Shown here in pieces: positions 5,267 through 30,617 of a stretch of 64,000 nucleotides of DNA. Each line of letters starts with the position of its first letter. Positions within the stretch are counted from its first letter, which is position 1. The stretch is taken from the NCBI GenBank assembly GCA_016934715.1, contig JAFGSI010000030.1:1-64000 (forward strand). Direction: 5' to 3'. The position numbers and the translations under genes were made by a program. This DNA comes from Anaerolineales bacterium (GTDB lineage: Bacteria; Chloroflexota; Anaerolineae; Anaerolineales; Villigracilaceae). The notes under the pieces are model-generated. The model made no database searches. It was given only the letters and a program-made list of their open reading frames with translations, and was not told the origin of the DNA.

Positions 5267-7063
5267 ATGGTCGAAGAAGAGTTCCTGCCACAGGACGAGG
5301 CCGAGGATGGCGAGAGTGCGATGCTCCGGGAAGCCATCGAGGCCCTGCGCCAGAGGGACCGGGTGCGGGCGCGCGACCTGCTGACCCGTCTGTTGAAGGT
5401 CGACCAGAAGAACCCGGATTACTGGATCTGGCTGAGCGCGGCAGTCGAGTCGCAGAAGGAGCGTCTGTATTGCCTGCAGACGGCACTCCAGATCGACCCC
5501 GATAATGCGGCTGCCAAACGCGGCCTGATCCTGCTCGGAGCCCTCCCGCCCGACGACTCGGTCGCCCCGTTCCCGCTTCACCATGCGCGCCTGTGGGAGG
5601 AGACCCTGAAGATCGAGTCGGAGCCCGAGGTCAAGGAGGGCCAGCGCGGCCTGGCCAATCCGGTGGTGCGCTTCTTGATCATCGTTGGTGCCGGGTTGGG
5701 GCTGGTGGCCTTGTTCTATTTTGGCTTCCTGGTCCCGCGCGGGGCGGGTCCCTCCATCTGGGGTACGCCGCTGCGCCGCTCGACCGATACGATCACCCCG
5801 ACCCCAACCACCACGCCGGTCTTCCGCACGGTCACTCCTACCTTCTCTGCACCAACCCCGCTCTGGATGCTGCTGGATGCGACGTACACCCCGACGCCGC
5901 TCTACGTGCTCACCCCCCACCCGCCGACCAGCAGCGATGCTTTCAGCGCCGGGCTGCGCTATTTCCAGGCCAGGGATTATGAGAATGCCCGGGTATTGAT
6001 GCAGCAGGTGATCGACATCGAGCCCGAAGCGGCCGATGCTTATTTTTACATTGGGGAATCGTATCGCCTGCAGGGGAATTACCAGCAGGCCCTTGCGTTT
6101 TATGAAGAAGCCATCCGGATCGACGGCCGCTTCGCCCCGGCCTTTCTGGGACGGGCGCTGGTCTACCATATCCTGAACCCGGACACTGACGTAACTTCCT
6201 ATTATGAGGAGGCGATCTCCCTTGATCCGCAGTTCACCCTGGCGTACCTGGCACGGGCGGCTTACCGGATCGAGCGGGCCAACTGGCAGGGGGCCCTCAA
6301 TGACCTGCGGGTGGCCGTCAGCCAGGATCCGAATTCAGCGCTGGCCTATCACTACATGGCCAGGGTGCAGCTGATCATGGGGCGCAACGAGGAAGCGCTT
6401 GAATCAGCCTTGAAGGCCAACCAGCTCGACATCACCCTGTTGGATAACTATCTGGTGCTGGGGCACGCTTATGTGGCCAACAACCAGCTGTCGGAGGCCG
6501 TTGGCGCTTTGCAGTTGTATACCCTCTATGTGCCCAATGATCCGCTGGCGTATGCGATCCTGGGAGCGGCTTATAACGCTGCCGGGGAGTACCGGTTGGC
6601 TATCGATGTCCTTGACCGGAGCATCGAACTCTATCGTCACAACGGCGAGGCATATTATCAGCGCGGTTTTGCATATCTCCATATTGGCAATTTCGATCAG
6701 GCGGAACGGGATTTTTCGCAGGCCCTGGGCTATGATCCGGAGGATTACGATCCCCTCTTCGGCCTGGCGATGTCCTATTACCAGCAGGAACAGTTCGGGA
6801 ATGCCTTTCTCCAACTGGAAAAGGTCCTCGGCGCGGCGGACACGGATGAGCAACGCGCTCAGGCGTTGTACTGGGAGGCGGTCTGCCTCGATGAACTGAA
6901 CGACCGCTCCTCGCGGCAGATCTGGCGCAGGCTGCTGGAACTGCCCGAGGAGGCCATGCCGTCCGAGTGGCGCCAGGCGGCTTATGAGGCCCTTGGTGTA
7001 ACTCCTACGTTAACCCCCACACCTCGGGCAACCCATACCCGTACCCCAACTCCCGAGCCTTAA
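5267..7063 (+). CDS. TPR-repeat membrane protein
   Basis: The 598-residue protein has a cytoplasmic N-terminal region with TPR-like helices (residues about 10-85), one membrane segment at about residues 131-155 (FLIIVGAGLGLVALFYFGF), a Thr/Pro-rich linker, and a long extracytoplasmic TPR array from about 225 to 560 with recurring A.FY..A..LD motifs (for example QQALAFYEEAIRIDGRFAP). It ends in another Thr/Pro tail. TPR arrays act as protein-interaction scaffolds; the partner is unknown. The gene is monocistronic, bounded by its own promoter and by the hairpin at 7091. Confidence 0.82.
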   Translation: MVEEEFLPQDEAEDGESAMLREAIEALRQRDRVRARDLLTRLLKVDQKNPDYWIWLSAAVESQKERLYCLQTALQIDPDNAAAKRGLILLGALPPDDSVAPFPLHHARLWEETLKIESEPEVKEGQRGLANPVVRFLIIVGAGLGLVALFYFGFLVPRGAGPSIWGTPLRRSTDTITPTPTTTPVFRTVTPTFSAPTPLWMLLDATYTPTPLYVLTPHPPTSSDAFSAGLRYFQARDYENARVLMQQVIDIEPEAADAYFYIGESYRLQGNYQQALAFYEEAIRIDGRFAPAFLGRALVYHILNPDTDVTSYYEEAISLDPQFTLAYLARAAYRIERANWQGALNDLRVAVSQDPNSALAYHYMARVQLIMGRNEEALESALKANQLDITLLDNYLVLGHAYVANNQLSEAVGALQLYTLYVPNDPLAYAILGAAYNAAGEYRLAIDVLDRSIELYRHNGEAYYQRGFAYLHIGNFDQAERDFSQALGYDPEDYDPLFGLAMSYYQQEQFGNAFLQLEKVLGAADTDEQRAQALYWEAVCLDELNDRSSRQIWRRLLELPEEAMPSEWRQAAYEALGVTPTLTPTPRATHTRTPTPEP

Positions 7064-20686: not shown

Positions 20687-21679
20687 TCAGATCCAGGTCC
20701 GGCGGTGCATCCACAGGAACATGATGATCGGGATCAGGAGGATGAGCCCCAGGGCCAGGACGAAGACCGCGGGCTGCATCCAGGCAGTAAGCGGGACGTC
20801 AGGCAGGAAGAAGTTCATCCCGAAAAAACCGGCGATGAAGGTGGTCGGCATGAACAGGGTGGTGATGATCGTCAGGGTCTTCATGACGTCGTTCATGCGG
20901 TTGTTGATCACCGACAGGTAGGTGTCCAGCGCCCCGCCGACCAGGTCGCGCATGCTCTCGTTCAGGTCATGCAGGCGGACCAGGTGGTCGTAGACGTCGC
21001 GGAAGAAGATCCGGTCGCCGGGATCGATGACGCGATAGTCGTCCCGGGCAAGCCTGTTCAGCACCTCGCGCTGGGGGGTGATGACCCGCCGCATGGCGAG
21101 CAGGATCCGTTTTAGGGCGAACAGGTCGGCGAGGGTCTGCGGGGTAGGCTTGTCGAAGATCTGGTCCTCGAGTTCGTCGATCTCGCTGTCGATCTGCTCG
21201 ACGATCGGCATATAGGCGGCGACGACGTAATCCATGATCTTGTAGAGCAGGTGGTCGGGCCCGCCCTGGACATGGCGGTTATCGCGCTGGCAGGCCTGCC
21301 AGGCCTGGTCGAGGCCGGGGATCGGGTCGTCATGATGGGTCACGACGTAGTTGGGTCCCAGGAAGATGTCCAGTTCATGGGCATGGAACGAACCGTCGCC
21401 TTGGGCGGTCTTGAAATCCAGGGCATTCAGGACGATGTAGACGTACTCGCCCCAATCGTCGACCTTGGGGGTGTGGGTCTCGCGCAGAGCATCGTCGACC
21501 GCCAGCGGGTGGAAGCCGAAGTCGTCGCGCAGGATCGGCTCGCAGGTCGCGTCGGCCTCACCTTCGAAATCGACCCACAGTACGCCTTTGCGGTTGTGCA
21601 GCGCGGCGGCGATCTTCTTGACCGGGTAATCGGCTTGCAGGGTGGAGCGGGGGGAAGACTGGAAAAGGACGCGGATCAT
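20687..21679 (-). CDS. corA: CorA family magnesium/divalent cation transporter, copy 2
   Basis: The 330-residue protein is a full-length CorA: N-terminal alpha/beta domain (HPLAVDDALRETHTPKVDDW), long helix region, and two C-terminal membrane helices with the GMN signature (IAGFFGMNFFLP, about residue 276). The C-terminus ends HRRTWI. A GGAGG site precedes the ATG. It is closer to the classic form (HPLAxDD...PKxDxW) than copy 1. Confidence 0.93.
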   Translation of the reverse strand: MIRVLFQSSPRSTLQADYPVKKIAAALHNRKGVLWVDFEGEADATCEPILRDDFGFHPLAVDDALRETHTPKVDDWGEYVYIVLNALDFKTAQGDGSFHAHELDIFLGPNYVVTHHDDPIPGLDQAWQACQRDNRHVQGGPDHLLYKIMDYVVAAYMPIVEQIDSEIDELEDQIFDKPTPQTLADLFALKRILLAMRRVITPQREVLNRLARDDYRVIDPGDRIFFRDVYDHLVRLHDLNESMRDLVGGALDTYLSVINNRMNDVMKTLTIITTLFMPTTFIAGFFGMNFFLPDVPLTAWMQPAVFVLALGLILLIPIIMFLWMHRRTWI

Positions 21680-21778
21680 CGGGCCTCCATGGGGTGCGGT
21701 GCTCTGATTCTAGCCGAAAAAACGATTTTCGGGCACTTTTTGACCCGCCCGGAGCAAGTAAGCGCGCACACTTTAAGA

Positions 21779-21849
21779 ATATTGAAGTCAATATCAATAT
21801 TATTGAATATTAGTGCTTGACAATTGAAAAAACCGGTATATAATATTGA
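21779..21849 (+). promoter_or_regulatory. Array of ATATTGA/TCAATAT operator half-sites
   Basis: Half-sites lie at 21779-21785 and 21788-21794 (perfect 7-2-7 palindrome ATATTGA-AG-TCAATAT), 21794-21806 (perfect TCAATA-T-TATTGA), and 21843-21849 overlapping the -10 box. They surround a strong promoter. The binding protein is unknown; the DUF2089 protein encoded downstream is a candidate. Confidence 0.6.
21817..21844 (+). promoter_or_regulatory. Promoter of the SHOCT-like/DUF4097/MFS operon
   Basis: TTGACA (21817-21822), 16-base spacer, TATAAT (21839-21844): both hexamers are perfect. It is one of the strongest promoter matches in the window. Confidence 0.9.
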
Positions 21850-21892
21850 TTAGGTTGAGACAGTGTTCTGGCTGTTCGGAAAGGAGCAGGAG

Positions 21893-22108
21893 ATGATACA
21901 CGATTTGAATGCCTATCAAGCCTATGAGCGCCGGGTGATCCAGGGCGAGTTCGATTACAACGGCTTTGCGGCCCTGGCGCGTCCCGTCACCCGCCGCCTG
22001 CCCCTGCGCATCCGCTTCGGGGATCTCCTGATCCGCGCCGGCATGAAATTGAAGCAGCCCCGGCGGGGCGGGTATGCCATGTCGCTCACCACCATGGCGG
22101 AGAAATAG
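21893..22108 (+). CDS. Small protein of unknown function
   Basis: The 71-residue product (MIHDLNAYQAYERRVIQGEF to the C-terminal MSLTTMAEK) is basic and unlike any family I recognise. I use ATG 21893, which has AAGGAG upstream; an earlier GTG at 21863 lies in the same frame. It is first in the operon, three bases before the DUF2089 gene, so it is probably co-translated. The central RLPLRIRFGDLLIRAGMKL could be an amphipathic membrane-binding helix. Confidence 0.6.
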   Translation: MIHDLNAYQAYERRVIQGEFDYNGFAALARPVTRRLPLRIRFGDLLIRAGMKLKQPRRGGYAMSLTTMAEK

Positions 22109-22111
22109 CCG

Positions 22112-22492
22112 ATGACGAGGGTTTTGAGCAAATGTCCCGTTTGCGATGGTGAGTTGACCGTCACGCGCATGCACTGCGATATCTGCGACATCACCATCGA
22201 CGGCCGGTTCAGCACCGGCATTTTTGCCGGCCTGACCCACGAACAGCTCGATTTTATTGAAACCTTTGTCCGCTGCGAAGGCAAGATGAACCGCATGGAA
22301 GAGGAACTGGCTCTTTCCTATCCCACCCTGCGCAACCGCCTGCACGAGATCATCCGGGCGATGGGCTATGAGCCGGGCAGGGAGGAGATTCCCGACGTCT
22401 CCGATGAAAAACGCCGGTCGGTCCTGGAAGGACTGGACGCCGGGACGATCTCAGCTGAAGAGGCCATGCGCCTTCTGCATGGAGAGGAGTAG
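22112..22492 (+). CDS. DUF2089 zinc-ribbon/HTH protein, probable regulator
   Basis: The 126-residue protein has an N-terminal zinc ribbon (CPVCDGELTVTRMHCDICD, residues about 8-26), then a helical part with LTHEQLDFIETFVRCEGKMN and LALSYPTLRNRLHEIIRAMGY, a probable helix-turn-helix. This is the DUF2089 family, taken to be DNA-binding. Its tail (RRSVLEGLDAGTISAEEAMRLL) is the same short SHOCT-like module found in three neighbouring proteins. It may control the operator array upstream and sense its partners through this module; that is inference. Confidence 0.82.
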   Translation: MTRVLSKCPVCDGELTVTRMHCDICDITIDGRFSTGIFAGLTHEQLDFIETFVRCEGKMNRMEEELALSYPTLRNRLHEIIRAMGYEPGREEIPDVSDEKRRSVLEGLDAGTISAEEAMRLLHGEE

Positions 22493-22496
22493 GAGC

Positions 22497-23741
22497 ATGC
22501 AACAACATTCCATTTCTGTCGAAACGACACCGGATGTCATCATCCAAAAGGTCGCCGGCGATCTGCGCGTTGCAGGCTGGGAACGCGGGGAGATCATGGC
22601 CAAGACCGACGGGGACCAGTTGAGCCTGACCCCTGCCGAGGCCGAGGTGCAGGTCTCCTGTGACGAGGCCCTGATCCTGTACCTGCCGCGCGACGCCAAT
22701 CTCAAGGTCGAGTTGGTGACCGGGGATGCCAGCCTGCAGGCCCTGCGCGGGACGGTCACCATGGGCAAGGTGGCCGGAGACCTGTCGCTAAATGATATCG
22801 AGGGTGTAACCGTGGAGGATGTCTCCGGGGACGTCGTCGCGCGCAACATGGGCCGGCTGGAGGTCCGGAAGGTTTCCGGCGATTTCACCCTGCGCGGCGG
22901 GCGCGGCGACTGCCTGGTCAAGTCGGTCGGTGGCGACGCCTCGGTGCGCGATGTCGACGGCGTGGCGGAATTCGAAGCCATCGGCTCGGACCTGTACCTG
23001 CGCAACGTGCGCGCGGGGGTCAAGGCCAACGCCGGCGCCGACGCGACCCTGTACCTGGACCCGGCACCCGATGTGGAGTATCACATCACTGCTGGCGACG
23101 ACCTGATGGCCTGGCTGCCAGCCGAAGCCGATTTCGAACTTCACCTGGTCGGTGGTTCGCCTGAGTCGGTTCACGTGGATTTCCCGGGGGTCGAACTGGA
23201 TGGCGAGAGTGCCACCTACGACCTGACCCTGGGCGAAGAAGAGGGAAAGCGGGCCCGGGTCTTCCTGACCGCGGGCGATGACCTGATGATCACCAGCCGG
23301 GCTGACCAGTGGTTCTCGGCAGCCGACTTTGGCGTTGGAATGCGCGATTTCGGTGAATTCAACTTCCCGGACATCCCGCCCATCCCGCCCATGCCACCCA
23401 TCCCACCGGATCTCTCCGAGCGCATCAACCGGCGCGTCCAGGAGGCGATGGAACGCTCGCGCTCGCGGGTCGAGGCTGCCCAGCAGCGGGCCGAAGTGCG
23501 CATTGAGGCTGCTATGCGGCGGGCGGAGGCCAAGGCCCGGGCGGCCGAAGTGCGTGCCCGCCGGGGGCAGGCCAACCTGAATGTCGGCCGCTGGAAGTGG
23601 GACCTCACTCCCCAGGGTCCGCTGTCGCGTGCGGCTCCGGTCTCCGAAGAGGAACGCCTGCAGATCCTGAAGATGCTGCAGGAGAAGAAGATCACGGTCG
23701 AAGAGGCCGAAAAGCTGCTCGCCGCTCTCGAAGGCAAATAA
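22497..23741 (+). CDS. DUF4097 beta-helix protein with coiled coil and SHOCT-like tail (LiaX/YvlB-like)
   Basis: The 414-residue protein starts at ATG 22497 with AGGAG; the longer frame lies inside the previous gene. Residues 1 to about 270 form repeated short strands (VAGDLSLNDIEGVTVEDVSG, RKVSGDFTLRGG), the DUF4097 beta-solenoid. A Pro-rich hinge (IPPIPPMPPIPP, about 285-300) leads to an Arg/Ala/Glu coiled coil (about 305-360). The last 35 residues (EERLQILKMLQEKKITVEEA) are a SHOCT-like helical hairpin. LiaX in enterococci pairs the same two domains and senses membrane-acting antibiotics. There is no signal peptide or membrane segment here. Confidence 0.82.
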   Translation: MQQHSISVETTPDVIIQKVAGDLRVAGWERGEIMAKTDGDQLSLTPAEAEVQVSCDEALILYLPRDANLKVELVTGDASLQALRGTVTMGKVAGDLSLNDIEGVTVEDVSGDVVARNMGRLEVRKVSGDFTLRGGRGDCLVKSVGGDASVRDVDGVAEFEAIGSDLYLRNVRAGVKANAGADATLYLDPAPDVEYHITAGDDLMAWLPAEADFELHLVGGSPESVHVDFPGVELDGESATYDLTLGEEEGKRARVFLTAGDDLMITSRADQWFSAADFGVGMRDFGEFNFPDIPPIPPMPPIPPDLSERINRRVQEAMERSRSRVEAAQQRAEVRIEAAMRRAEAKARAAEVRARRGQANLNVGRWKWDLTPQGPLSRAAPVSEEERLQILKMLQEKKITVEEAEKLLAALEGK

Positions 23742-23800
23742 ACAGTCTTTTCCCCTCCCGTCCTGAACGGACAGGGAACCGGGAAATCGAGGAGAACACG

Positions 23801-24454
23801 ATGACTGACCAGGAACGCAATCAAGTCTTGAAGATGATCGAGGATGGCAAGATCACACCGGAGGAAGGCCTGACCCTGATGAAGGCCCTCGAGCAGAATC
23901 CGGGCCAGGCCGAGAACGCCGCGCTCCCGGGGCCTGCCGGTGGGGCCTCCGCAGAAGAGGCAGAGCGGAAGGGCGAACCGTCCAGGATGGAGGCGGACCC
24001 GCGCATCGCACAGGTCAAGTCCACCGCCCAACGCCTGTGGCAGGTCCCGTTGTGGGCCGGCGTGGCGACCATCATCCTGAGCGCGCTGGGCATGTACGGC
24101 CTGCTGCGCGGGCCGGGAATGAACTTCTGGTTCTACTGCCTGTCGCTGCCGCTGCTGCTGGGTGTGCTGCTGGTCGTGGCGGCCGTCGGCAGCCGCCGGG
24201 CCCGCTGGTTGTTCGTCGACGTCAAGCAGAAGGCCGGCGAGCGCCCTGCGCGCATCTTCCTGGGCTTTCCTCTGCCGCTGAAATTGGCGGGCTGGTTCCT
24301 GCGCAATTTCGGGCACAAGATCCCGGACCTGGAAAACACCAACGTCGATGAGGTCATTCAGGCCGTGGAAACCGGTTTCGCGGGCGACGAGCCGCTGATC
24401 GTCAATGTGGACGAAGGCGATGATGGTGAAAAGGTGCAAGTTTATATTGGGTAA
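23801..24454 (+). CDS. SHOCT-like domain membrane protein
   Basis: The 217-residue protein begins with a SHOCT-like module (ERNQVLKMIEDGKITPEEGL). Two adjacent membrane helices follow at about residues 83-103 and 107-128 (VATIILSALGMYGLL, FYCLSLPLLLGVLLVVAAVG). A conserved C-terminal cytoplasmic region ends in VDEGDDGEKVQVYIG. This C-terminal part is also present, without the helices, in the protein at 25775. The ATG at 23801 follows GAGGAG. It sits 12 bases before an MFS gene. Confidence 0.75.
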   Translation: MTDQERNQVLKMIEDGKITPEEGLTLMKALEQNPGQAENAALPGPAGGASAEEAERKGEPSRMEADPRIAQVKSTAQRLWQVPLWAGVATIILSALGMYGLLRGPGMNFWFYCLSLPLLLGVLLVVAAVGSRRARWLFVDVKQKAGERPARIFLGFPLPLKLAGWFLRNFGHKIPDLENTNVDEVIQAVETGFAGDEPLIVNVDEGDDGEKVQVYIG

Positions 24455-24466
24455 CGGGTTGTTCCC

Positions 24467-25747
24467 ATGACCACGACCGCCACGGAAGTCGCGCAAGCCA
24501 AGAAGAAGCCGCTGTTGACCGGTTTCATCCTGCTGTTCCTGCTGGCGATGATCCTCGCCAATATGGGCAGCCAGATGTACGGTCCGCTGATGTCGCTCTA
24601 CATCCGTGACCTGGGGGCCTCGGTTCCCCAGATCGGTCTGTTCTTCACGATCGCCTCGATCGTCCCGCTTGCCCTGCAGATCCTGGGCGGCTGGATCTCG
24701 GACACCCTCGGTCGCCTGCGGGCGATCGCCATCGGCAGCGTCATTGGAATCCTGACCTACGTTGCGCTGATCATGGCCCCCACCTGGGAATGGCTGCTGC
24801 TGGCGACCACTTTCGGCGCCATCACGGGGTCCCTGGTGGGGCCCAGTTTCGACGCCTTCATCGCCGAGCAGTCCAGCGAAGAAAACCGGGCCAAGATGTT
24901 CGGCATCACCCAGGCCCTGTTCGGAATCGTCGGTTTTGTCGGCCCGGCCCTGGGTGGCTGGCTGGCCCAGGTGCGCGGTTTCAAGTTCATGCTCTTGATC
25001 GCGGCGCTGATGTACATTGTTGCGACCGTGATCCGGGTCAGCATGGCCCGCACAGCTTCTCGGAACGGTCATGGCAAGGGCGAAAAACTCTCTTTCGCCG
25101 GGCTGAAGGCCAACCTGGGGGCAATGTTGGGGATGCTCTTCGCCGGGGGTGTGGTGACCTGGATCCTGATCACCGATGGCGTCCGGGACATCTCGTTTGC
25201 CCTGTCGATGAACCTGTTCTCGGTCTACATGCAGGATTTCGGCGGCCTGAACCTGCAGCAGATCGGTTTGACCAGCAGCATCTTTGGCCTTTTCTTGATG
25301 TTGACGGTCATCCCGGCGGGCTACCTGGCCGACAAGGTTGGCGAGCGGGTCGGGATCGTCTTCGGTTTTGCCCTGGTGGGCATCTCCCTGGGCATGCTGG
25401 TCTTCCTGCCGTATGGCGCCTTCGGCTTGTACCTGGCCGGTTGGGGGCTGGCAGGCGCAGGCGTCGGGATGCTGCAACCGGCTTACCAATCGCTGATCAG
25501 CAAGGCGGTTCCCGAGAAATTGCGCGGCACAGCATTTGGGTTGTTCAGCAGCAGCCTGGGGCTGATTTCTCTGCCGTTTCCGTGGATCGGGGCCCAATTG
25601 TGGCACAGCGTCAGCCCGCGCTTCCCATTCCTGATCACGGCGGGGGCGGTATTCCTGTCCATTATCCCGGTCTGGCTGAAATTCAAGCTCCCCAAGAACG
25701 GTGTGCAAGCCGAGACTGGATCGACCAACGAAGACACACCCAAATAA
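24467..25747 (+). CDS. MFS transporter, copy A
   Basis: The 426-residue protein has about 12 membrane helices and MFS signatures: YGPLMSLYIRDLGA in helix 1, GGWISDTLGRLRAIAIGS in the 2-3 loop, and the repeat GYLADKVGERVGIVFG in the 8-9 loop. The helix 10-11 segment (LISKAVPEKLRGTAFGLFSS) is nearly identical in the copy at 26311, so the two are tandem paralogues. It is probably a drug or small-molecule exporter; the substrate is unknown. Confidence 0.88.
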   Translation: MTTTATEVAQAKKKPLLTGFILLFLLAMILANMGSQMYGPLMSLYIRDLGASVPQIGLFFTIASIVPLALQILGGWISDTLGRLRAIAIGSVIGILTYVALIMAPTWEWLLLATTFGAITGSLVGPSFDAFIAEQSSEENRAKMFGITQALFGIVGFVGPALGGWLAQVRGFKFMLLIAALMYIVATVIRVSMARTASRNGHGKGEKLSFAGLKANLGAMLGMLFAGGVVTWILITDGVRDISFALSMNLFSVYMQDFGGLNLQQIGLTSSIFGLFLMLTVIPAGYLADKVGERVGIVFGFALVGISLGMLVFLPYGAFGLYLAGWGLAGAGVGMLQPAYQSLISKAVPEKLRGTAFGLFSSSLGLISLPFPWIGAQLWHSVSPRFPFLITAGAVFLSIIPVWLKFKLPKNGVQAETGSTNEDTPK

Positions 25748-25774
25748 GCAAGCAATTTTGTGAGGAGGTGCATG

Positions 25775-26143
25775 ATGGCGAACAGTGAAGAAAGAATGAA
25801 GATCCTCAAAATGATCGAGGAAGGCAAGTTGAACGCCGAGGAAGGAGCCAGGCTGCTGGCTGCGATCGGCCGGCCGCCCGGTTCGGGGGGCATGATGCCC
25901 GGCGGGGCCCGCTGGCTGCGGGTGCGCGTCACCAATATCTCCACCGGGCGTTCCAAGGCGACGGTGCAGATCCCGCTGACCCTGATCGATGCCGGGATGA
26001 AGATCGGTGCCCATTTTGCTCCCGAGGTCGAGGGCGTTAACATGGACCAGTTGATGGATGCGCTGCGCTCCGGCATGACCGGCAAGATCATCGACGTCAC
26101 CAATGACGAAGATGGTGAGCACGTCGAGATCTTTGTCGAATAG
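25775..26143 (+). CDS. Small SHOCT-like domain protein
   Basis: The 122-residue protein starts with a SHOCT-like module (ERMKILKMIEEGKLNAEEGA), then a Gly/Pro hinge, then RWLRVRVTNISTGRSKATVQ and a C-terminal region (DQLMDALRSGMTGKIIDVTN to DGEHVEIFVE) homologous to the tail of the 23801 protein. There is no membrane segment. The start is ATG 25775, six bases after GGAGG; an in-frame ATG lies three bases earlier. It precedes the second MFS gene, repeating the [SHOCT-like][MFS] pairing. Confidence 0.75.
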   Translation: MANSEERMKILKMIEEGKLNAEEGARLLAAIGRPPGSGGMMPGGARWLRVRVTNISTGRSKATVQIPLTLIDAGMKIGAHFAPEVEGVNMDQLMDALRSGMTGKIIDVTNDEDGEHVEIFVE

Positions 26144-26310
26144 GGCTCCCATGCCGCCTCGGCCCGGGATCCTGCTGCAGGTCCACAACATCCTGGTCGG
26201 TTGTTGATAGCCAACGGATAGCCAGCCGACAGGCAGCCGGTTTTGGTTCGCGGCATACTGGGGCTGGTGAAAGCCAAATTGGAGCACGCGCTGCTGAGGA
26301 ACTCTTGCAT

Positions 26311-27606
26311 ATGGTCAAGAAACCACCGCTCCTGACGAATACCCTGGTCATCCTGTTGTTCAGCATGATCATGGCCAATATCGGGGGCAACATGTACGGG
26401 CCGCTGCTGCCGCTCTACGTCCAGGAACTGGGCGCTGACGTGGCCAAGGTCGGCATCTTCTTCACCCTGTCCATGATCGCCCCATTGCTTTTCCAGATTC
26501 TGGGTGGCTGGCTTTCGGACGCCATCGGTCGGGTCCAGGCGATTGCCATCGGCAGTGTGGCCGGGTTGGCCGGTTATGTTGTCTTTACCATCGCTCCCTC
26601 GTGGGGATGGTTGCTGCTGGCCATGACCGGCCTGGCGATGGCCTCCTCCTTTGTCGGACCTAGCTTCCAGGCGTTCGTGGCCGAGGAATCCGGCGAGAAG
26701 AACCGCGGCCTGGTCTTCGGCATCGTCCAGGGGATCTTCCTGGTGGTGGGCGTGATCGGCGCCCCGCTGGGTGGAATCCTCTCGGACAACTACGGTTTTC
26801 GGTTGATGTTCGGGATCGCGGCGGCGCTCTACGGGGTCGCCACCGTGATCCGGCTGTTCATGGCCCGCAAGATCCGCAAGATGGAAGAGAACGCGCCGCC
26901 GCGCGAAAAGCCGTCCTTCGGCCATCTCAAGACCAGCCTGCTGGCGATCTTCAGCCTGCTGACCGCCGGCGGGGTTGTGACCTGGATCTTCATCTCCGAC
27001 GGTGTTGGTGACGTGAGCTTCAGCATGGTCGGTAACCTGTTCCCGCTGTACATGAACAATATCGCCGGACTGACCAGGACCCAATTGGGGTATCTCGGCG
27101 CAATCTCTTCGGTTGTCGCCATGGTTTTCATAGCCCTGGGCGGCCTGCTTTCGGACAAGGCCGGCGAACGGGTCGGCATCGTGCTGGGTTACCTGCTTCT
27201 CGGGGGGGCGATCTTCATGATGGTGAACGTTGTCTCCTTCGGGGGCTTCGTGATCGCCTGGGCCCTGCTGGGTGTCGGTCAGGCACTGATCGGACCAGCG
27301 TATAACTCGCTGATCTCCAAGGTGGTCCCGCAGAAACTGCGCGGCACGGCTTTTGGCCTGTTCTCGACCAGCCTGGGGATCATCTCGCTGCCCTCCCCGT
27401 ACATCGGCGCCATGCTGTGGGAGAACTTCGGGCCGAAGGTGCCCTTCTACATCCCGCTGGTCGCCATGACGCTGATGCTGCCAATCATCTGGTTCAAGTT
27501 CCGCCTGCCGAAAGAGGCTGGGGAGCCCGCTTCGCAGGAGGGTCCACAAAACGATGCTGCCCTGGTAGTGGAGACAGCCAGGATGGTCGATAGCCCGGCC
27601 GACTGA
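26311..27606 (+). CDS. MFS transporter, copy B
   Basis: The 431-residue protein is a close paralogue of copy A: YGPLLPLYVQELGADVAKVG, LGGWLSDAIGRVQAIAIGS, LSDKAGERVGIVLGYLLLGG and LISKVVPQKLRGTAFGLFST occupy matching positions. There are about 12 membrane helices. The start is ATG 26311, ten bases after GAGGA; the TTG six bases earlier is also in frame. The 167 bases before it hold no gene. It is probably an exporter duplicated together with its SHOCT-like partner. Confidence 0.87.
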   Translation: MVKKPPLLTNTLVILLFSMIMANIGGNMYGPLLPLYVQELGADVAKVGIFFTLSMIAPLLFQILGGWLSDAIGRVQAIAIGSVAGLAGYVVFTIAPSWGWLLLAMTGLAMASSFVGPSFQAFVAEESGEKNRGLVFGIVQGIFLVVGVIGAPLGGILSDNYGFRLMFGIAAALYGVATVIRLFMARKIRKMEENAPPREKPSFGHLKTSLLAIFSLLTAGGVVTWIFISDGVGDVSFSMVGNLFPLYMNNIAGLTRTQLGYLGAISSVVAMVFIALGGLLSDKAGERVGIVLGYLLLGGAIFMMVNVVSFGGFVIAWALLGVGQALIGPAYNSLISKVVPQKLRGTAFGLFSTSLGIISLPSPYIGAMLWENFGPKVPFYIPLVAMTLMLPIIWFKFRLPKEAGEPASQEGPQNDAALVVETARMVDSPAD

Positions 27607-27638
27607 CCGTCGCCGGAATCGAGAAATGGAGCGATCAA

Positions 27639-28481
27639 ATGTCAGAAGAAATCTTTGAGCAAACCTTTGAAGTATCCAAGCCGGCCCGTCTGGTGCTGAA
27701 CAACATCCGCGGCTCGACCCGCGTCGAGGCTGGCGAGGAGGGGCTGATCCAGGTCAGGGCGGTGGTCCACACCGAGACCGGCGACGAGAAGCGCACCGAG
27801 GTCAAACTTGAGCAGGAATCCGACGGGACCGTCAAGGTCGCCACGCGCTTCCCCGAGGGCGCACTGGGCTGGCTGTCTGGTTCGCATCCCTGCAAGGTGG
27901 ATTACACCGTCCAGGCGCCCAGGGCCTGTGACCTGAAGGTCGGCGGGGTCAGCAACACCGCCTCCATCCAGGGGTTCGAGGGCGACTTCTCCTTCAGCTC
28001 GGTCAGCGGAGACCTGACCCTGAGCGACATGCTCGGCCCGCTGTCGGTCAACATGGTCAGCGGGGACATCGAGCTGGCGGATGTCAAGGGTGCCCTCAAG
28101 CTGCACTCGGTCAGCGGCGAACTCACGGGCCGGCGCCTGGCCGGTACCCTGAACCTGGATACCGTTTCGGGGAATGTCGAACTCCAGGAGTCGGATCTGC
28201 CCTCCGCCCATGCGACTTCCGTCAGCGGCAGCATGGAGCTCGAAACCTCGCTGGGGGAAGGCCCCTATCACTTCAACTCGGTCTCGGGCGAAGTCGCGTT
28301 GAAGGTCCCGGCCGAGACGGCCTGCACAGCCGAATTGCACAGCATCAGCGGAGGCCTCTCGACCAAGCTGCCGTCGACCTCCGTTTCCCGCCACAACGGC
28401 ACCCAGGTGATCGAGATCCAGGGCGGGGGCGTGCAGGTGAAGTTGAGCAGTGTTTCCGGTGATCTGAAAATCAAGTCTTGA
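27639..28481 (+). CDS. DUF4097 beta-helix protein
   Basis: The 280-residue protein is a DUF4097 beta-solenoid. Regular 15-20 residue rungs contain SVSGD or SVSGE (FSSVSGDLTLSDMLGPLSVN, KLHSVSGELTGRRLAGTLNL, LSSVSGDLKIKS). Unlike the 22497 protein it has no coiled coil or SHOCT-like tail, and no signal peptide. It may pair with that protein. It lies 32 bases after MFS copy B. Confidence 0.8.
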   Translation: MSEEIFEQTFEVSKPARLVLNNIRGSTRVEAGEEGLIQVRAVVHTETGDEKRTEVKLEQESDGTVKVATRFPEGALGWLSGSHPCKVDYTVQAPRACDLKVGGVSNTASIQGFEGDFSFSSVSGDLTLSDMLGPLSVNMVSGDIELADVKGALKLHSVSGELTGRRLAGTLNLDTVSGNVELQESDLPSAHATSVSGSMELETSLGEGPYHFNSVSGEVALKVPAETACTAELHSISGGLSTKLPSTSVSRHNGTQVIEIQGGGVQVKLSSVSGDLKIKS

Positions 28482-28485
28482 GCCG

Positions 28486-29193
28486 ATGACCGGGACTGAT
28501 CTGAACAAGCTCCTCCAGAGCGTGGGCGGTGCAGGCCTGATCGGCCTGCACCTCCTGCTTGGCCCGCTCCTGCGCGGCAGGCGGGCCCGCTGGGGCGCGA
28601 CCGAGTCCGAAGTTGGCGCCGCGCTGCCCGGGGATGAGTTCGTCCTGGCGCCGAAGTGGGGCTACACCCGGGCGGTCACAATCCAGGCCCCGGTCGAGCG
28701 GGTCTGGCCCTGGTTGGTGCAGATTGGCCAGGGCCGCGGCGGCTTCTACAGCTATGAATCTCTGGAGAACCTGGTCGGTTGCGACCTGCACAACACCGGG
28801 CAGATCCTGCCCGCGTTCCAGACCCTGCAGGTGGGGGACGGCATTCGCCTGCACCCTCAGAGCCCGCCCCTGACGGTCCGGCTGATCGAGCCGGGGCGAT
28901 ACTTCGTCCTGCACGGCGACGCACGCCTGGATGGCGCTGGGCCCGCCCCGGATGATTTCGTCAGCATGACCTGGGGCTTTTACCTGGAGCCGACGGAAGA
29001 TGAGGCGACCCGCTTCCTGACGCGCGGTCGCTATGACTATTCCCGCAAGAACCGCTGGCTGTATGGCCCGGCGATCGTCGAGCCGATTGGCTTCATCATG
29101 GAACGCAAGATGATGCTCGAAACGAGCCGGATCGTCGAGAACGCCGCCCGAATCCCCAATTTGGGGGATGACGCTGACGAGCACTGCCCGTAG
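28486..29193 (+). CDS. SRPBCC-superfamily (START-like) protein
   Basis: The 235-residue protein begins with a hydrophobic helix (VGGAGLIGLHLLLGPLL), then a helix-grip fold: TRAVTIQAPVERVWPWLVQI, GRGGFYSYESLENLVGCDLH, GDGIRLHPQSPPL and RFLTRGRYDYSRK. This is the SRPBCC type usual for lipid or small hydrophobic ligand binding. It starts four bases after the DUF4097 stop and is thus in the same operon. A role in ligand capture for the adjacent exporters is possible but unproven. Confidence 0.75.
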   Translation: MTGTDLNKLLQSVGGAGLIGLHLLLGPLLRGRRARWGATESEVGAALPGDEFVLAPKWGYTRAVTIQAPVERVWPWLVQIGQGRGGFYSYESLENLVGCDLHNTGQILPAFQTLQVGDGIRLHPQSPPLTVRLIEPGRYFVLHGDARLDGAGPAPDDFVSMTWGFYLEPTEDEATRFLTRGRYDYSRKNRWLYGPAIVEPIGFIMERKMMLETSRIVENAARIPNLGDDADEHCP

Positions 29194-29234
29194 AATCGAG
29201 ACCGCACGCATTTCACGCTTTTCCCTGAGGACCC

Positions 29235-30617
29235 ATGAAAACCACTCCCGCCACGGATGAAAAACGCCCGTCAGGCATGTTCGGTTTCACCATTGTCTGG
29301 ATTGGTCAGATCATCTCGGTGCTCGCCTCCAGCATGACCGGCTTCGGCATGACCCTGTGGGTCTACAAACAGACCGAGAGCGCCACGGCCATGGCCGGCA
29401 TGCAGGTGGCCTTCATTCTGCCGTTCCTGCTGCTTTCGCCGATCGCCGGGGCAATGGTTGACCGCTACAACCGCAAGCTGATGATGATGATCAGCGACCT
29501 GACGGCGGTCTTGTCGACCGCGGGAATCTTTATTCTCTATGCCGCCGGCCTGCTGGAATTCTGGCACCTCTACATTGCTTCGGTCATTAATGGCCTGGGA
29601 AACACTTTCCAGTGGCCGGCCTATTCGGCTGCCATCAGCACCATGGTCTCCAAGGAGCAGTATGGGCGGGCGAACGGATTGATGTCGCTGATCGATGCCG
29701 GCCCCGGCATCCTGGCCCCCCTGCTGGCCGGGACTCTCCTGGCGATCACCATCGAGGGCCCCTTCGATAGTTTCGCCCTGATCATGCTGATCGACGTCCT
29801 GACCTTCTTCCTGGCCATCGGGGCTTTGCTGATCGTTCACGTGCCGCAGCCCGCGAAGACCGTGGAAGGCCAGGAGGGGCGGGGAAGTATCCTGCGCGAG
29901 GCCTGGTTCGGATTTACCTATATCTTCAAACGCCCCAGCCTGCTTGGTCTGCAGCTGATCTTCCTGGTTGGGAACCTGTTCTCGGGGATGGGCTTCACCC
30001 TGCTGGCGCCGATGATCCTGGCCCGCAGCGACCAGAACAGCCTGATCTTCGGCTCGGTCCAGACTGCCGGGGCGGTCGGCGGGGTCCTGGGCGGGATCAT
30101 CATGAGCGCCTGGGGCGGCTTCAAGAAGCGCGTCCACGGGGTGCTGCTCGGCTGGGCCTTGAGCGGCATCTGCTTTGCCTTCCTCGGCCTCGGGCAGGGA
30201 CTGCCGATGTGGATTCCGTTCATGATACTGACGATGATGGTCATCCCGCTGATCAACACCTCCAACCAGGCCATCTGGCAGGCCAAGGTCGCCCCCGACA
30301 TCCAGGGACGGGTCTTCTCGGCCCGCCGGCTGATCGCCTGGGTCAACCAGCCGATCGCCCCACTGATCGCGGGCCTCCTGGCGGACTTCGTGCTTGAACC
30401 GCGTATGCAGGCCTCAACCGGACTGGCGAGCATTTTCGGACCGGTCTTTGGCACCGGACCCGGGGCCGGGATGGGCCTGCTGTTCACCTTCTGCGGGCTG
30501 GCTGCGGCCCTGGTTGGGCTCTCGGGGTATCTCGTTCGCCCGATTCGGGATGCCGAGACGCTCCTCCCGGACCATGACCAGTTGGAACTGCTGGAGCCCG
30601 CCGCAGCTGGCGACTAG
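29235..30617 (+). CDS. MFS transporter, enterobactin-exporter-like (MFS_3)
   Basis: The 460-residue protein has about 12 membrane helices and belongs to a different MFS branch from copies A and B: FTIVWIGQIISVLASSMTGFG, LWVYKQTESATAMAGMQ, LSPIAGAMVDRYNRKLMMM. This form is common in macrolide and siderophore-type exporters of Gram-positive bacteria. A GAGGACCC ribosome site precedes the ATG. It is the last gene of the long operon; a decayed methyltransferase follows. Confidence 0.87.
   Translation: MKTTPATDEKRPSGMFGFTIVWIGQIISVLASSMTGFGMTLWVYKQTESATAMAGMQVAFILPFLLLSPIAGAMVDRYNRKLMMMISDLTAVLSTAGIFILYAAGLLEFWHLYIASVINGLGNTFQWPAYSAAISTMVSKEQYGRANGLMSLIDAGPGILAPLLAGTLLAITIEGPFDSFALIMLIDVLTFFLAIGALLIVHVPQPAKTVEGQEGRGSILREAWFGFTYIFKRPSLLGLQLIFLVGNLFSGMGFTLLAPMILARSDQNSLIFGSVQTAGAVGGVLGGIIMSAWGGFKKRVHGVLLGWALSGICFAFLGLGQGLPMWIPFMILTMMVIPLINTSNQAIWQAKVAPDIQGRVFSARRLIAWVNQPIAPLIAGLLADFVLEPRMQASTGLASIFGPVFGTGPGAGMGLLFTFCGLAAALVGLSGYLVRPIRDAETLLPDHDQLELLEPAAAGD

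Follow-up and report, generated by a model that had tools for sequence, protein, structure and literature searches.

What controls a run of genes that joins a protein of the DUF2089 family, presumably a regulator, to toastrack-type proteins and three MFS transporters (here a, b and c)? The question is raised by a ten-gene operon at positions 21863/21893-30617 of the window, by which we mean the whole stretch of 64,000 nucleotides that was analysed, from an Anaerolineales bacterium of the phylum Chloroflexota (contig JAFGSI010000030.1 of assembly GCA_016934715.1, positions 1 to 64,000 of the forward strand). Three features are new: a strongly conserved promoter with 13-bp dyads at a 21-bp period, a link between this element and DUF2089, and exporter targets of the element away from DUF2089. 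The operon is probably the home locus of an exporter regulon under the control of DUF2089, which would act as a repressor and be freed by docking of its SHOCT-like module to a membrane scaffold.

Promoter and operator dyads

The ten open reading frames (ORFs) in the ORF list are all co-directional, and the promoter before them, TTGACA-16 nt-TATAAT (21817..21844, plus strand), matches the two hexamers at 12 of 12 positions and scores 43.7 bits with our model R1; both results agree with the sequence-only reading, which had placed ten co-directional genes behind one consensus promoter. R1 was built from sequence only, on 28 regions, and was applied at E<=0.001 to the phylum and at E<=0.01 to the family. 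Two operator dyads of the form TYRA-N5-TYRA lie on the same strand at 21773..21785 and, 21 bp further on, at 21794..21806, that is, 44 and 23 nt ahead of the start of the -35, and a third dyad, degenerate in the window, lies over the -35 and the spacer (21817..21829).

Perfect hexamers occur in 57 of 116 operon upstream regions (53 of the 111 distinct ones), and none of 1160 shuffles reaches 12 matches; the spacer measures 16 nt in 55 of the 57 perfect promoters (51 of 53 when distinct). Scored against TYRA-N5-TYRA (maximum 8), 58 non-redundant regions give means of 5.43 at -42 and 5.84 at -21, counted from the start of the -35, which itself begins a third copy of the dyad, and the same score in 200 shuffles has a mean of 3.51 and a highest value of 4.41. 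The motif was first noticed in the regions later scored, and the independent set consists of the 28 held-out regions with 17- or 18-nt spacers, in which the same peaks appear (5.0 at -42 and 5.57 at -21). At these two offsets 87 other strong promoters of the same loci, taken as controls, have means of 3.26 and 3.57. Only -42 and -21 count as evidence, because offsets that cover the fixed letters of the -35 and -10 score high anyway (5.21 at -9 and 5.48 at +23 in the 58 regions; 5.64 at -9 in the held-out set). The ladder in the window stands 2 bp further upstream (-44 and -23); a few near relatives share the 23-nt distance, and most others have 21 nt. Within the spacer, base frequencies at two positions point to conservation beyond what a sigma-70 promoter would lead one to expect, with T at +9 in 71% and A at +12 in 91%, as against 26% and 33% in 335 control promoters that are less AT-rich (0.545 versus 0.748).

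The genome holds a second DUF2089 gene (locus L037), which is preceded by a 35-bp palindrome with TCAA/TTGA arms, symmetric at 34 of 35 positions (the odd one is the centre base), and the right arm of this palindrome reaches into the probable -35 of a 9/12 promoter. Within the operon, the gap before MFS b (26144-26310) was considered as an operator site of its own and rejected, as no site was found in it by R1 or by eye.

The element across the phylum and its unlinked targets

DUF2089 is present in 255 of 400 Chloroflexota genomes and the R1 element in 31 of 400, the two surveys being taken as the same 400 genomes from their shared genome identifiers; all 31 element genomes are in the DUF2089 list. 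The element thus occurs in 31 of the 255 genomes with DUF2089 and in 0 of the 145 without it (Fisher 6e-7, a value that ignores genome kinship, the 31 genomes coming from six families only).

In the family, R1 finds matches in 47 of 61 genomes, promoter-only matches included. The 80 family matches were sorted into 39 at DUF2089 operons, 25 unlinked ones with operator and 14 promoter-only ones, and 2 antisense copies were dropped; "with operator" stands for a model start at or below 24 (dyad 2 covered), a border that was set post hoc and on which L260 (24) and L254 (25) lie. The 25 unlinked operator matches precede 15 MFS genes, 3 ABC exporter genes, 1 gene of the LiaI/LiaF type and 6 others, labels such as ABC, response regulator and cysteine synthase having been assigned by eye. 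Among the 14 promoter-only matches, by comparison, one precedes an MFS gene and one a LiaF-like gene (Fisher 1.4e-4 for the exporter contrast). The 18 exporter-linked matches span 14 genera. Of the 15 unlinked MFS proteins, seven share 66-76% identity with MFS b and eight show a distant relationship to MFS c (27-34%); the six of the 15 that were checked against Pfam all match MFS_1. Close relatives of MFS b stand alone after the same operator in related genomes.

The phylum scan adds further unlinked matches before an ABC gene (L284) and an MFS gene (L286), and a promoter-only match before a TetR-like gene (L288). It also adds three lone toastrack operons after the element (L285, L287 and L289; order level, one family, two genera), none of which shares a contig with DUF2089 and two of which, L285 and L287, contain a SHOCT-like module by Pfam. 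Since exporters and toastrack operons stand singly after the element elsewhere, the operon in the window looks like a regulon gathered in one transcript. Clusters of the LiaI/LiaF-TM type were also seen after element-like promoters, at L254 (promoter-only) and at L257 (part of the operator; Pfam match just below cut-off).

Operon proteins, the shared hairpin and their association

The helical module that recurs in the operon belongs to one family, Pfam PF22746 (SHOCT-like_DUF2089-C), as a profile comparison of the short repeats noticed in the sequence-only reading shows, with the tail of DUF2089 below cut-off. DUF2089 (22112..22492; all genes of the operon are on the plus strand) combines a zinc ribbon (PF22747, 47.1 bits, cut-off 27.6), a helix-turn-helix (HTH) domain (PF09862, 73.5 bits, cut-off 33.4) and a C-terminus that scores 18.3 bits against PF22746 (E 0.0018), under the 27-bit cut-off. 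Above the cut-off are the C-terminus of the 414-residue protein (22497..23741; 36.1 bits) and the N-termini of the 217-residue protein (23801..24454; 38.6 bits) and the 122-residue protein (25775..26143; 43.3 bits). Pfam already holds this family and three proteins of the window pass its cut-off; the shared module is therefore real and previously known. At E<=0.001 PF22746 matches four places in the genome, three in the operon and one adjoining the second DUF2089 gene on contig C16. That gene (~6,400-6,560, minus strand) is followed by a 376-residue protein that has a SHOCT-like module at its N-terminus and lacks a toastrack match.

The 414-residue protein had been read from sequence as a DUF4097 protein. 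A Pfam match did not bear this out (none to PF13349 at E<=0.1), but the predicted structure has a toastrack-like beta-helix. In the AlphaFold2 (AF2) model (pLDDT 86) a beta-helix at residues ~1-270 is followed by a long helix (306-356) and the C-terminal hairpin (384-412). This model matches the toastrack structure 4qrk (Foldseek E 1.2e-6; VIA-align Z 9.9, root-mean-square deviation (rmsd) 2.2, 135 residues aligned) and 4opw_A (Z 11.6, rmsd 2.9, 171 aligned), both entries being named as toastrack structures in the text of Ravi et al. 2024 (PMC11237479) that we draw on here. Toastrack is not singled out by Z alone, because other beta-helices reach 11.1 (8c50_A) and 10.8 (3p4g_D). A relative found with the 414-residue profile (in L285) matches PF13349 at 27.0 bits (cut-off 22.9). 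Taken together, the predicted model gives the 414-residue protein a toastrack beta-helix fold. The 280-residue protein (27639..28481) is a clear DUF4097 protein (PF13349, 66.4 bits against the same cut-off), with no SHOCT-like match in Pfam.

In the model of the 122-residue protein (pLDDT 75, pTM 0.46), the helical hairpin leads into a domain of the order strand-strand-helix-helix-strand-strand, which we name S122. This domain matches no Pfam family, and the fold search with its model, whose pTM is 0.46, gave Foldseek E>=0.39 and Z<=3.7 at best. Searches of solved structures by sequence, with the S122 and 414-residue alignments, had best values of 0.00079 (a designed protein, 34 positions) and 0.046, respectively. 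In the 217-residue protein the hairpin is followed by two hydrophobic helices (2TM) and, by profile, an S122-type domain; related profiles find its C-terminal part in many relatives.

The three exporters predicted from sequence are MFS proteins by family membership: MFS a (24467..25747; MFS_1, 171 bits), MFS b (26311..27606; 189.5 bits), which is 50% identical to a, and MFS c (29235..30617; 106.3 bits), of the H+-antiporter/Mef-like subgroup (TIGR00900, 198.1 bits, cut-off 319.6). Against NCBIfam, all matches listed for a, b and c (the best 25 of 52, the best 25 of 41, and 13 of 13) are below cut-off, so that none assigns a named drug-resistance subfamily. The absence of a two-component kinase was also read correctly, as neither a histidine kinase nor a response regulator is found among the ten proteins by Pfam or NCBIfam. 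Between the 280-residue protein and MFS c lies a 235-residue protein (28486..29193) with no Pfam or NCBIfam family above cut-off.

The operon is headed by a small protein of 71 residues (21893..22108), for which we set the start at the ATG at 21893; the alternative start at 21863 gives an ORF of 81 residues. That this first ORF is spurious was considered and ruled out by the family of small proteins to which it belongs: the profile of the family matches 28 of 833 small ORFs, spread over 28 of 113 loci. These head proteins have ~64-105 residues and a C-terminal stretch of the LGxWMIxxGEKLR type, the copies in L052 and L130 being identical, and the window protein has no Pfam match. A CorA gene (20687-21679, minus strand) lies divergently upstream of the operon, with CorA-like genes at the same place in several family members (L043, L046, L049 and L054, judged by eye), and two genes of the TldD/PmbA type directly follow position 30617.

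The association of these genes was followed in relatives with gene calls from our own script, which often started DUF2089 too late; loci lacking a DUF2089 call (L055, L056, L063, L064, L069, L072, L075 and L077) are left out of the DUF2089-anchored counts. The loci cover 19 of 22 other genomes of the family with DUF2089, 10 of 10 of the order, 7 of 12 class genomes with DUF2089 (8 loci), and 22 loci picked from the rest of the phylum. In the family (DUF2089 called in 17 of 19 loci), toastrack with SHOCT-like module is found in 17 of 17, S122 in 17, 2TM in 16, MFS in 16, and all five in 15. At the order level (8 of 10 called) S122 is found in 7, MFS in 6 and toastrack in the same run in 1; in the class (6 of 8) S122 in 5, toastrack in 3 and MFS in 2; and in the wider phylum (20 of 22) toastrack in 13, S122 in 9 and MFS in 6. 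The order conservation raised by the sequence-only reading therefore holds within the family, where the core DUF2089-toastrack/SHOCT-SHOCT/2TM/S122-SHOCT/S122 is kept with MFS, but loosens beyond it (toastrack in 1 of 8 at the order level). When loci from named records were found through S122 instead, the same run in the best 80 of 319, many of them on contigs that end early, has DUF2089 in 63, toastrack in 68, 2TM in 57 and MFS in 42.

An MFS partner, as first proposed, proved not to be universal. By Pfam, ABC exporters and ABC-2 permeases take its place in L141 and L145, an ABC ATPase is found in L162 and an MMPL exporter in L093; the exporter class therefore seems exchangeable and the core constant. 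In two relatives (L145 and L162) the gene after S122 is a holin-like one of PF04020. In L071, a class-level relative, GNAT acetyltransferase and rhomboid genes adjoin S122 by Pfam, and L153 and others are similar. In two genomes of ~1.8-1.9 Mb (L092 and L093) the order is DUF2089, a small TM protein, S122 and an MMPL exporter; the DUF2089 of L093 has no zinc-ribbon match, and the promoters of the two loci match R1 from position 13 or 19 on.

Proposed control by DUF2089, rival explanations and known systems

In the mechanism that we propose, DUF2089, with its zinc ribbon, HTH and SHOCT-like tail, would bind the 13-bp TYRA-N5-TYRA dyads, which at a distance of 21 bp would face one side of the DNA and could seat several dimers side by side, the last over the -35, where they would repress a near-perfect sigma-70 promoter. 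The toastrack, 2TM and S122 proteins, with the same helical hairpin, may form a scaffold on the membrane side, which under membrane or xenobiotic stress would capture DUF2089 by hairpin pairing and free the promoter, so that more scaffold would be made along with exporters, which are three MFS proteins in this operon and include ABC or MMPL types in relatives. Repression is favoured because the perfect promoter has a dyad over its -35, and capture of the repressor at the membrane would be the simplest path for the signal because the hairpin is common to regulator, scaffold and membrane protein. In a broader form, which we put forward tentatively, a stress system of Chloroflexota that needs no kinase may have DUF2089 as its master regulator: a repressor with a SHOCT tail that sits on phased dyads, is held or released by hairpin exchange with a membrane scaffold of toastrack and S122 proteins and governs interchangeable exporters (MFS, ABC, MMPL) in the operon and in a scattered regulon, with the amphipathic head protein as a possible membrane sensor.

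Several observations weigh against control by a DUF2089 repressor. A dyad score of at least 6 is reached by 13 of the 87 control promoters at -42 and by 13 of 87 at -21, versus 29 and 38 of the 58 regions; among the nine best control promoters listed, several (L040, L044, L056 and L064) are in loci whose operon promoter the region list missed. The third dyad of the window is itself degenerate, and the dyads are mostly upstream of the -35, a position that would also suit an activator. No R1 match at E<=0.001 is found in 224 of the 255 DUF2089 genomes, which means either that the diversity is only partly covered by the model or that the element is confined to certain lineages; of the 61 family genomes, 14 lack a match, and 12 of these 14 have DUF2089. 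For six of the 25 unlinked operator matches, no link to the gene that follows is visible. The idea of a larger regulon in the genome of the window was rejected, as the operon promoter is the one full match of R1 there, the other five being an antisense copy or partial; here, then, the "regulon" is the operon itself. The genome (97.76% complete) has no match to PspA (PF04012) at E<=0.001, and PspC is present on another contig; the locus is therefore not a classical phage-shock locus.

We think it unlikely that DUF2089 is instead an activator that binds the dyads and recruits RNA polymerase on a signal from the scaffold. Two of the three dyads are wholly upstream of the -35, a usual place for activator sites, yet about half of the regions are perfect in both hexamers and should need no activator, and an overlap with the -35 is seen for the third dyad as well as for the palindrome before the second DUF2089 gene. 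It appears quite unlikely that the dyads serve an unlinked regulator other than DUF2089, perhaps a repressor that responds to drugs or to membrane stress in general, and that DUF2089 is just one of its targets: the element is AT-rich, DUF2089 is only its presumed binder and is far more widely spread, but the element is found in none of the 145 genomes without DUF2089, distant genomes of another family (G039 with L093 and G186 with L092) keep a partial element directly before DUF2089, and the second DUF2089 gene has its own variant of the element.

The locus might also be no more than a multidrug-efflux operon of the ordinary kind, locally regulated, in which the scaffold has a housekeeping role and no envelope is sensed, a reading that we hold doubtful. 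The MFS proteins are nearest to models of multidrug-type and other transporters, the listed ones all below cut-off, whereas the module common to regulator and scaffold, the promoter type kept by the three lone toastrack/SHOCT operons, the PF04020 holin-like genes in such loci and the LiaI/LiaF-type gene after the element of L257 (Pfam just below cut-off) speak against it. If the genes had come together by chance and their short helical ends were unrelated, this would fit a module of only ~30 residues and a DUF2089 tail under the Pfam cut-off, but such a reading is most improbable given the Pfam models for three partners, the few matches genome-wide and the conserved association, which refutes it for the family.

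Several known loci share features with the window operon. LiaX of Enterococcus joins an N-terminal module to DUF4097 and acts in envelope stress. The window operon differs from LiaX/LiaFSR in having no two-component system, and the LiaX model NF038025 gives its 280-residue protein 17.4 bits against a cut-off of 350; with the LiaG model NF049997 the 280- and 414-residue proteins score 42.2 and 17.4 bits against a cut-off of 285. The two relatives of the operon with a PF04020 gene after S122 resemble Bacillus yvlABCD, where YvlD belongs to that family. A further likeness is the toastrack protein with a SHOCT-like module, YvlB, in the sections of Ravi et al. 2024 (PMC11237479) used here. The yvl operon has been placed in the sigma-W regulon (PMC3498285), and two-hybrid assays show an interaction of YvlB with both PspA and LiaH (PMC9239133). 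Unlike yvl, the window operon encodes no PspC or PspA among its ten proteins, has DUF2089 in place of an extracytoplasmic function (ECF) sigma factor and includes exporters. In the leaderless bacteriocin clusters of enterocin DD14 and thucin, too, DUF2089 has membrane proteins and an ABC/HlyD exporter as neighbours, but these are bacteriocin immunity loci, and the parts of the two reports consulted (PMC7332713, PMC9484092) make no mention of a toastrack gene.

Closest to the window operon is the context given in the main text of Ravi et al. 2024 (PMC11237479), where DUF2089 with the same architecture (zinc ribbon, HTH and SHOCT-like) adjoins toastrack genes in a four-gene context for which lia-like signalling is proposed, and where toastrack domains are described as pan-bacterial and as present in transport operons of some Actinobacteria. 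The DUF2089/SHOCT-like/toastrack context being in print, the list of parts is not new. That main text contains "MFS" 0 times and "chloroflex" once, and the parts of it consulted name no S122, operator or regulon. In the portions consulted of PMC11237479, PMC7332713, PMC10434189 and PMC9484092, DUF2089 is just a gene name or part of one predicted operon type. A limited, mostly title-level survey of the literature on DUF2089 and exporter regulons found no description of the operator, the exporter regulon, the S122 partner or the small head protein.

A conserved operator with a list of targets makes the DUF2089 family a testable regulator instead of one of "unknown function", and allows bench assays (gel shift, reporter) that do not require the organism. 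With the operator, export regulons could also be predicted for Chloroflexota that have not been cultured. For the biology of these bacteria, the finding ties toastrack scaffolds to exporters of the drug type, and it points to a little-known way in which pumps may be switched without the usual sensor kinase.

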